DNA of 42,842 bases, from contig JARRBR010000009.1 in assembly GCA_029982755.1 (NCBI GenBank), positions 1-42,842 on the forward strand, given 5' to 3'. This document shows, piece after piece, positions 40,897 to 42,842 of the stretch (the first letter of the stretch is position 1; every line of letters starts with the position of its first letter). The notes under the pieces are model-generated. The model did no database searches. It saw nothing but the letters and a program-made list of their open reading frames with translations, and was not told the DNA's origin. The stretch comes from Rhodocyclaceae bacterium (GTDB taxonomy: Bacteria > Pseudomonadota > Gammaproteobacteria > Burkholderiales > Rhodocyclaceae). The position numbers and the translations under genes were made by a program.

Positions 40897-41053
40897 ACTC
40901 ATGACGAATGTCGTGAGTGGTGCGACAAGGCAGGCGGGAGGGGTGCCTCCGGCCGGGCTGCTGTGGAGCGGGGACAAGGGGGGCAGGTAACGCTGTCAGG
41001 CAGGCGTGTATGACGGCTAGTCGGCCACTCCGGCGATCCAGGCCTCAACGACC
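40897..41053. other. Intergenic DNA without recognised genes
   Basis: No ORF with coding character, terminator or promoter was recognised here. GC falls toward the right, where the atypical block begins. Confidence 0.5.
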
Positions 41054-41210
41054 TTATCCGAGATGGATGACCGCTCGGCCGAGTCGCCAATTTCCGTGTT
41101 CGACCCTGACCTGCCTGATGATGTTTGCAAGGTCGAAGTCGGCTTTCTGATCTTCAAGCTGCCAGTCTTTTCCTCAAGAAGACCGCCTCGTCCTCGGCCA
41201 TTGCCGCCAT
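41054..41210 (-). pseudogene. Frameshifted remnant of a 51-residue ORF
   Basis: On the minus strand, ATG at 41210 opens MAAMAEDEAVFLRK, and a different frame continues DWQLEDQKADFDLANIIRQV to a stop at 41054-41056. The span is 157 bases, one more than 52 codons. Removing one base of the TTTT run at 41167-41170 joins both halves into 51 residues. I do not recognise the protein, and overlapping frames on both strands are also open (41017-41250 minus, 41063-41281 plus), so this is tentative. The stretch 41211-41330 holds an inverted repeat (CATTGCCGCC at 41199, GGCGGCAATG at 41231) but no gene. Confidence 0.35.
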
Positions 41211-41330
41211 TGCCGAGCCAGGGAATGTCGGGCGGCAATGCGCCAGTCACCAGTCATTCAGCCGCCGATGTCCGGCAATGACCGCTTACCCCTTCAGGCT
41301 ACAGCTGATCCCCAGTTGAGCGAAATAGAA

Positions 41331-42359
41331 CTATGCACTGCGGGAATGCGATCGATAGGCACCGGGGGGGCTACCTGTCCATGACTTGAAAGCCCGCTGA
41401 AATGCAGTGCTGCCCGTGAATCCTAGTTCCTCTGCAATGTCGCTCAGGGGGGTTCTGGTGCTTGCTAATCGAATGATGGCCATATCGCGCCTTAACTCGT
41501 CCTTCAACATCTGGAACGACTTCCCTTCAATGGCCAAGTGCCGTTGCAGGGCGCTGACCGACATGTGCAGGCGCTGTGCAGCGCCGGTCAAATCTGGCCA
41601 TTCTGGACACATCTGCTGCAATAGCGCGCGCACCCGTGCGCTATACGTGTGCTCGTTCAGGTTGGGGCCCACCAGATTGCCCGGTGTGGAGCGCAGGAAA
41701 GATTGCAGCGCGACCGCGTCACGGTGCATTGGTTGCGCGAACTCGGAGGCGTCGAACCAGACTGCCGAACGCATCTGCCCGAACCGCAAGGTACCAGAGA
41801 AGATTCGATCATAGCCTTCAGCATGCACAGGTTGTTCGAATGGGAAGTCGAAACCCTTAGGTACCAGACGGCCGCCATGCAGCCACACTAGAAGGCGCCA
41901 GAAGACGCGTAGCAGGAGGCCATGCAGAAAGTCTGCGTGCGCACCCTGATTGCCTCGCATCTCCAGGGCAGCGCCAAACAGCGAGCCATCGGAGACAGGC
42001 ACAAGCAGTAAATCATCCTGCAGCAGGGCAAAGGATTCGCACACGCGTTGCAAAGCTGCTGCCAGCGTTCGCACCCCAAGTGTGGAGCGAGCCATCAGCG
42101 CGAAGCTGCCGCAGCGTAGCGGCCTGCCGCGCAGATAGCCTAGGCATTCGTCATCTAGGCTGTCCTTTACCGCACTGAAGAGCGCAATGTATTGCTCGAC
42201 AGTTACCCGTGACTGCTCGAGATGCAGCAACGGCTCGGCGATGCAGGCCTGCTCCAGAACGCTGACAAGCCAAGATTCAGTGGCTAGGCCGTTGCTGCGC
42301 GCACCGTCCAGCAACCCATGTACGGCAAAGATAGGAACTGTGTTGACAGATCTCACCAT
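41331..42359 (-). CDS. AraC family transcriptional regulator with arabinose-binding-like N-domain
   Basis: The 342-residue regulator has an N-terminal effector domain of the Arabinose_bd type (WLVSVLEQACIAEPLLHLEQ, DECLGYLRGRPLRCGSFALM) and a C-terminal AraC helix-turn-helix pair (MSVSALQRHLAIEGKSFQML, then LSDIAEELGFTGSTAFQRAF and KSWTGSPPGAYR). Such regulators often sit beside acyl-CoA or lipid catabolism genes and activate them. Here it is divergent from an acyl-CoA dehydrogenase. GC and codon use are lower than in the genes to the left (more AAT, ATA, TTG), which suggests recent transfer. No strong ribosome site precedes 42359. Confidence 0.9.
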   Translation of the reverse strand: MVRSVNTVPIFAVHGLLDGARSNGLATESWLVSVLEQACIAEPLLHLEQSRVTVEQYIALFSAVKDSLDDECLGYLRGRPLRCGSFALMARSTLGVRTLAAALQRVCESFALLQDDLLLVPVSDGSLFGAALEMRGNQGAHADFLHGLLLRVFWRLLVWLHGGRLVPKGFDFPFEQPVHAEGYDRIFSGTLRFGQMRSAVWFDASEFAQPMHRDAVALQSFLRSTPGNLVGPNLNEHTYSARVRALLQQMCPEWPDLTGAAQRLHMSVSALQRHLAIEGKSFQMLKDELRRDMAIIRLASTRTPLSDIAEELGFTGSTAFQRAFKSWTGSPPGAYRSHSRSA

Positions 42360-42548
42360 GGTTAAAGGACACAGCTATGGCTGGGCCAAGAAATGGAGGT
42401 CGTTTGTTAGTTTATAGAAGTCGTTGGGTATCGGCACTTTAGAGCCTGACTACTACGATCCTGTCTAGGCCCTGAATACGCGCAACTGAATCGTTCAGTA
42501 CGACGCAATGAATACGATTCGGGCCTTACCAAAACAGGAGACAAGCAC
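42360..42548. promoter_or_regulatory. AT-rich control region between araC-type and acyl-CoA dehydrogenase genes
   Basis: This is the most AT-rich part of the window (43 percent GC at 42361-42420 by hand count). TGAATACG occurs at 42473-42480 and 42509-42516, TGAATCG at 42487-42493, CTGAATCGTTCAG at 42486-42498 is an interrupted palindrome, and GAATCGT/ACGATTC form an inverted repeat at 42488-42520. These are candidate AraC-type sites. Confidence 0.45.
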
Positions 42549-42635
42549 ATGCCTTTACTCAATGAGCATGGAACCAGCAGACGTCATCCCGGTACCCCCC
42601 TGAACTTGCAGGGCTGCGGTTTAGTCGATATCTGA
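42549..42635 (+). CDS. Putative 28-residue leader ORF before the acyl-CoA dehydrogenase
   Basis: The frame reads MPLLNEHGTSRRHPGTPLNL and ends QGCGLVDI. AGGAG lies eight bases before the ATG, which is a better site than many real genes here have. It stops 10 bases before the acyl-CoA dehydrogenase ATG, and the dehydrogenase ribosome site GAGGAG overlaps its stop codon. It could be a regulatory leader peptide, a small protein, or the relic of a longer gene. I recognise no family. Confidence 0.4.
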   Translation: MPLLNEHGTSRRHPGTPLNLQGCGLVDI

Positions 42636-42645
42636 GGAGCCCCCG

Positions 42646-42842
42646 ATGCTTCCACAATTACATCGTCATGCTTGGATGGACGGAGAGATAGAAGCTTTCC
42701 GTGAACAGGTGCGCCGCTACGTTGCCGCCGAATTCACGCCCCGGCTCGACGAATGGCGCCGCCAGGGCTACATCCCGCGCGAGGTCTGGCGTCCGTTCGG
42801 CGAGATGAGCTTTCTGCTGCCCGAGATGCCCGAGACCTATGG
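42646..42842 (+). CDS. Acyl-CoA dehydrogenase, 5' part
   Basis: The gene runs off the right edge after 65 complete codons. The start has GAGGAG seven bases upstream. The translation begins MLPQLHRHAWMDGEIEAFRE and continues with QVRRYVAAEFTPRLDEWRRQ and GYIPREVWRPFGEMSFLLPE, the N-terminal helical domain of FAD acyl-CoA dehydrogenases, where the WRRQGYIPREVW type is common in long-chain enzymes. The FAD and catalytic regions lie outside the window. GC is 45 percent in the first 60 bases and 72 percent at 42721-42780, an abrupt change within one gene. The AraC-type gene upstream is its likely regulator. Confidence 0.88.
   Translation, partial: MLPQLHRHAWMDGEIEAFREQVRRYVAAEFTPRLDEWRRQGYIPREVWRPFGEMSFLLPEMPETY

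Follow-up and report, generated by a model that had tools for sequence, protein, structure and literature searches.

Near its end, the 42,842-nucleotide window (the whole stretch of DNA analysed here, contig C104 of the metagenome-assembled genome G000, which comprises 3.24 Mb in 180 contigs and is 86.21% complete with 1.28% contamination) carries a sharp rise in GC content just inside the start of an acyl-CoA dehydrogenase gene, which raises the question of whether the two sides of this step share the same ancestry. The initial annotation had counted by hand 27/60 GC at positions 42646-42705 and 43/60 at 42721-42780 within one intact frame; both counts are exact, giving a step of 16 inside a frame that is open from the ATG at 42646 as far as the last base of the contig, 42842. 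Its claim that the low-GC side runs on through the control region and into the AraC gene also held, with 51.0% and 58.7% GC, respectively, compared with 69.8% for window positions 1-40850. At third codon positions, GC is 30% in the first 20 codons of the dehydrogenase (hereafter the head), 87% in the rest of its visible part (the body), and 65% in the AraC gene, the counterparts of which reach 61%, 83%, and 86% in the related loci L018, L008, and L012.

To place these values, the dehydrogenase of C116, a second contig of the same assembly, was used to search species genomes for relatives; the best 80 of 403 relatives were considered, among which records very near the window's genome are possibly absent. 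Over the same codons, the step in 78 other rows (C116 and 77 of the 80 loci; L042, L059, and L077, whose match begins past residue 1, were left out) is 6.6 +/- 2.9 GC counts of 60, with a maximum of 12. The values are 3 for C116, 5 for L018, and 6 for both L008 and L012, and the window has the largest step of the 79 aligned rows. Given the family mean, about 7 of its 16 counts correspond to the ordinary AT-rich gene start of the family, and the GC step is larger than the family's usual one.

Table 1. Features at the right-hand end of the window.
Feature	Positions	Strand	Basis
AraC-family regulator gene, 342 aa, L018 type	41331..42359	-	Pfam, amino acid identity, tree
Control region between the divergent genes, L018 type	42360..42645		Aligned bases compared with L018, L008, and L012
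Acyl-CoA dehydrogenase, first 20 codons (head), low GC, L018-like	42646..42705	+	Identity counts
Best-supported junction	42705..42708		Last L018-like diagnostic site 42705, first L008/L012-like site 42708
Rest of visible dehydrogenase (body), L008/L012/C116 type, cut by the contig end	42706..42842	+	Identity counts

The features are compiled in Table 1. The product of the regulator gene is predicted to have an AraC-type DNA-binding domain, with Pfam scores of 57.9 bits for HTH_18 (cut-off 33.6) and 103 for Arabinose_bd (cut-off 27.6), while HTH_AraC, at 25.3, falls just below its cut-off of 26.6. Neither the regulator nor the dehydrogenase reaches an NCBIfam equivalog cut-off, and the score for QhpR, 130.3 bits, lies below its cut-off of 250. 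Between the divergent genes there is a perfect inverted repeat, ACTGAA-N3-TTCAGT, at 42485-42499, which is imperfect in L018 and is a possible operator. Positions 42549-42635 hold a 28-codon open reading frame with a plausible ribosome-binding site, whose counterpart in L018 has equal length, the same place and, by eye, a similar C-terminal end; this candidate conserved leader peptide has no plasmid matches.

The identities change sides within the dehydrogenase gene. The regulator is 90% identical in amino acids to those of L018-L020 and 68-70% identical to those of L008-L017 and L021. In the control region, the identity over aligned bases is 214/285 with L018, 85/186 with L008, and 91/187 with L012, and the head matches L018-L020 at 52/60 bases, C116 at 45/60, and L008-L017 and L021 at 44/60. 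The body, in contrast, is identical at 134/137 bases to each of C116, L008, and L012 (133-134/137 across L008-L017 and L021) and at 113/137 to L018. Head and body were compared in 47 of the best 80 (of 403) relatives, and a window-like head occurs only in L018, L019, and L020, the other 44 having at most 46/60. BLAST over the loci gave the same picture: L018-L020 are colinear with 41324-42842 at 85% over 1521 bases, and L008-L017 and L021 share the AraC region at 69-70% and the dehydrogenase start at 89.5-90.4%.

The point of change was located with diagnostic sites, defined as those at which the base of L018 differs from the base on which L008 and L012 agree. The window carries the L018 base, the L008/L012 base, or neither at 187, 40, and 29 of the 256 sites in the AraC gene, at 65, 11, and 9 of the 85 in the control region, and at 8, 1, and 1 of the 10 in the head; in the body, all 22 are L008/L012-like. 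Thus, from 41324 to 42705 the window is of the L018 type at 260 of 312 informative sites, and all 22 sites between 42706 and the contig end follow the L008/L012/C116 type, the best split being at 42706. The L018-like sites alone give a wider range for the junction, 42684-42708, because 42690-42702 differs from L018 as well. In site-order shuffles, which treat sites as independent and use a split point picked from the data, the observed excursion was reached in 0/5000 for both parent pairs, over the whole stretch as well as from the control region onward, and in 7/5000 (L008) and 0/5000 (L012) within the 197 gene bases alone; in the control triple, L012 with L018 and L008 as parents, 449/5000 shuffles reached it. 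The ratio of head to body divergence is 11.4 for the window and C116, and among 1430 other pairs its median is 1.00 and its maximum 3.43, the pair L008-C116 being omitted since its body has no differences (head 3, body 0).

Phylogenetic trees place the AraC gene of the window with L018 at a support of 100/100 and reject its grouping with L008/L012 (p-AU 3.8e-9), the tree program flagging an odd base make-up in the window and L018 rows. The 137-base body groups with L008/L012/C116 at 92/90, and a tree that forces it with L018 is not significantly worse (p-AU 0.141); the 60-base head groups with L018 at 84/52, and forcing it with C116, L008, L012, L017, and L021 is likewise not rejected (p-AU 0.061). 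Since 8 of the 60 head bases are unlike those of L018 (five lie in 42690-42702), the left parent would be a cousin of L018 and not L018 itself. Two head residues common to the window and L018, H6 and E16, are present in L022 and L029 too. The body has no exact match to any known copy, with three differences each from C116, L008, and L012. That the contig sequence is a mosaic is well supported.

Could the gene, nevertheless, be vertically inherited, with no exchange and with its first codons driven toward AT-rich synonymous ones? Gene starts are often AT-rich in their synonymous codons, and the milder step of the same sign in the dehydrogenase family accords with this explanation, as do the codon differences between the head and C116, all but two of which are synonymous, and the private AT-ending choices at codons 15-19. 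Codon choice, however, offers no account of the agreement with L018 at eight of the ten diagnostic sites in the head and likewise in the AraC gene and control region, and a comparable GC step is seen in 0 of 78 other rows. Codon bias at the 5' end explains part of the step and is rejected as its full cause; we regard descent with no exchange as highly improbable. The other explanation to be weighed, which we consider unlikely, is an assembly chimera in which an assembler or a chimeric read joined an L018-like regulator end to an L008/L012-like dehydrogenase from a different strain or copy. The junction lies only 137 bases from the end of contig C104, and C116 opens with another allele of this gene start, so that the assembly graph probably branched here; no further, independent mosaic of this kind turned up among the best 80 of 403 loci, plasmids, 395 genomes of the family, and 399 of the order, and the junction as an exact 28-base word occurs in 0 viral contigs.

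Yet, because the body differs from C116 at 3/137 bases and from every close copy, a chimera needs a third allele. Moreover, L018 and the L008/L012 type have no exact run longer than 17 bases in common within the first 200 bases of the gene, so that bridging through a shared word of at least 21 bases is unlikely, provided that the left parent resembled L018; the true left parent is not L018 itself. A patchwork comparable to that of the window also lies inside contig C116, where the operon changes its nearest relative along its length (0/5000 shuffles): the 239 bases at 62-300 are identical to L008, and other stretches are 95-100% identical to L012. Exchange within this operon family therefore looks common, which makes the mosaic of the window plausible and ordinary in kind. 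On balance, we think it probable that the mosaic reflects real recombination between operon variants, and likely that the exchange took place in a cell and not in an assembler.

C116 begins 10 bases before the same dehydrogenase gene, and its first 110 bases are 95% identical to L008. There is no second, L008-type AraC gene in the assembly; a probe made from that of L008 matches only the gene in C104 (69%) and the two dehydrogenase starts. The two contigs may lie next to each other in the genome and have been separated by strain variation, or they may represent two copies.

The end of the window is the start of a mobile beta-oxidation-type catabolic operon, with a divergent AraC regulator followed by the acyl-CoA dehydrogenase. 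Under real recombination, the regulator, the control region, and the first 20 codons would derive from an operon related to the L018 type as a cousin, and from codon 21 on the dehydrogenase would be of the L008/L012/C116 type, the two having been joined by homologous (homeologous) recombination between operon variants in the conserved 5' end of the gene. Regulator and operator would thus move together, while the enzyme differs from that of C116 by two residues in the 65 complete codons that are visible. Such a swap might alter the inducer response and regulation of the operon, and, if the junction is real, it offers a near-base-resolution view of a catabolic operon changing its control with its first enzyme nearly unchanged. 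We hold it doubtful that in this operon family the regulator, control region, and dehydrogenase start form an exchangeable cassette, swapped by recombination within the conserved 5' end of the first enzyme gene, for which the population carries swapped (C104 end) and unswapped (C116 start) alleles.

The initial annotation had further proposed that the AraC gene, the leader, and the first 25 codons were swapped as a unit, replacing the native promoter and gene start. The unit itself is borne out, inasmuch as the AraC gene, control region, and gene start share L018-type ancestry and the rest is of the other type, except that the boundary falls after 20 codons and not 25; the replacement of a native promoter and start is not supported. 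Up to about 40943 the window resembles its congeners (77-87% in the seven best matches besides the window itself). The genus is probably Thauera, since a match in congener G001, at C2:129867-130001, has the same coordinates as that in plasmid pTX1 of Thauera sp. K11. Among 60 relatives, none has a match to the AraC gene at E <= 1e-60; the dehydrogenase is matched at E <= 1e-100 in 15 of the 60 (best 64%, in G035), among them 3 of 28 congeners (45-48%), for which reason we discarded a native gene with a foreign promoter. Neither half, on these comparisons, looks native to the genus, and the direction of exchange cannot be told from them. At E <= 1e-20, a match of any kind occurs in four of the 395 genomes of the family (G000 included), and G717 is the sole genome other than G000 to match the whole stretch (85%), its locus of 4513 bases being identical to L018. 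In the order, 4 of 399 genomes, including G000, have a match, and the other three lack the junction and the AraC gene in one piece. Beside the AraC gene, positions 41020-41106 have copies of 98-99% identity in contig C169 of G000 and in G010, and positions 41094-41200 have copies of 74-91% in several other congeners.

The operon is best seen in C116, where the dehydrogenase, with its N-terminal, middle, and C-terminal acyl-CoA dehydrogenase domains all above the Pfam cut-off, is followed by a class III CoA-transferase, an AMP-dependent acyl-CoA ligase, a thiolase, an enoyl-CoA hydratase, and an SDR (Pfam), a predicted catabolic set of the beta-oxidation type. Both halves of the mosaic belong to an operon type that is found nearly identical in distant taxa. 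Near-identical stretches of 9-11 kb that carry it link L018-L020 and L008-L011: L018 is 100% identical to L019 over 10.5 kb and 99.99% to L020 over 9.1 kb, and L008, from a Curvibacter MAG, is 99.8-99.98% identical over 9.8-11.1 kb to L009 (Malikia), L010 (Sphingobium), and L011 (Achromobacter). The near-identity of copies from distant taxa, together with the clear patchwork, makes this family well suited to mapping exchange sites. Names of DEHP degraders occur among the operon loci, and a substrate guessed from these names was set aside.

Real recombination here would be a new example of a known process. In horizontal regulatory transfer, as the portion of PMC5890482 used here describes it for switched intergenic regions in E. 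coli and S. aureus, a divergent control region precedes a closely related gene body and their histories disagree. In the window, too, a highly divergent control region precedes a homologous gene (85/186 with L008 and 91/187 with L012, against 134/137 each in the body); as to histories, the AraC side gives a p-AU of 3.8e-9, the 137-base body alone one of 0.141, and the site-order shuffles are significant. What sets the window apart from the cases in that portion is that its control region is accompanied by the divergent regulator gene and by the first 20 codons of the target gene. A second parallel is ICEbph-salKF702, for which the part of PMC10282184 drawn on here reports fused catabolic clusters, sal:bza and bza:sal, on ICEs. 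The reshaping of mobile catabolic clusters through homologous recombination of related genes, probable for the window, is common to both, and whereas whole pathway parts fuse there, the junction in the window parts a regulator end from an enzyme body.

The same gene order as in C116 occurs on the Acinetobacter baumannii plasmid pEC_mcr4.3 (NZ_CP038265.1), with an AraC gene divergent from the dehydrogenase and then a CaiB/BaiF CoA-transferase, ligase, thiolase, enoyl-CoA hydratase, and SDR, and with IS3-family transposase genes on both sides. This operon tracks L008, and its regulator end is not of the L018 type (mean identity to the window 72.8%); unlike the window, it has a longer gap between regulator and enzyme, with an annotated hypothetical gene. 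The Acinetobacter plasmid that carries the operon (L112) is named for mcr-4.3. In C116, the dehydrogenase has a 27-base repeat near codon 130 (L003:389-442), which adds 9 residues, with AIAMTEPG present twice, and is absent from L008, L012, and L018. Directly after the operon of this contig, at L003:7506-9257, lies a transposase-like open reading frame that is IS66-like by eye.
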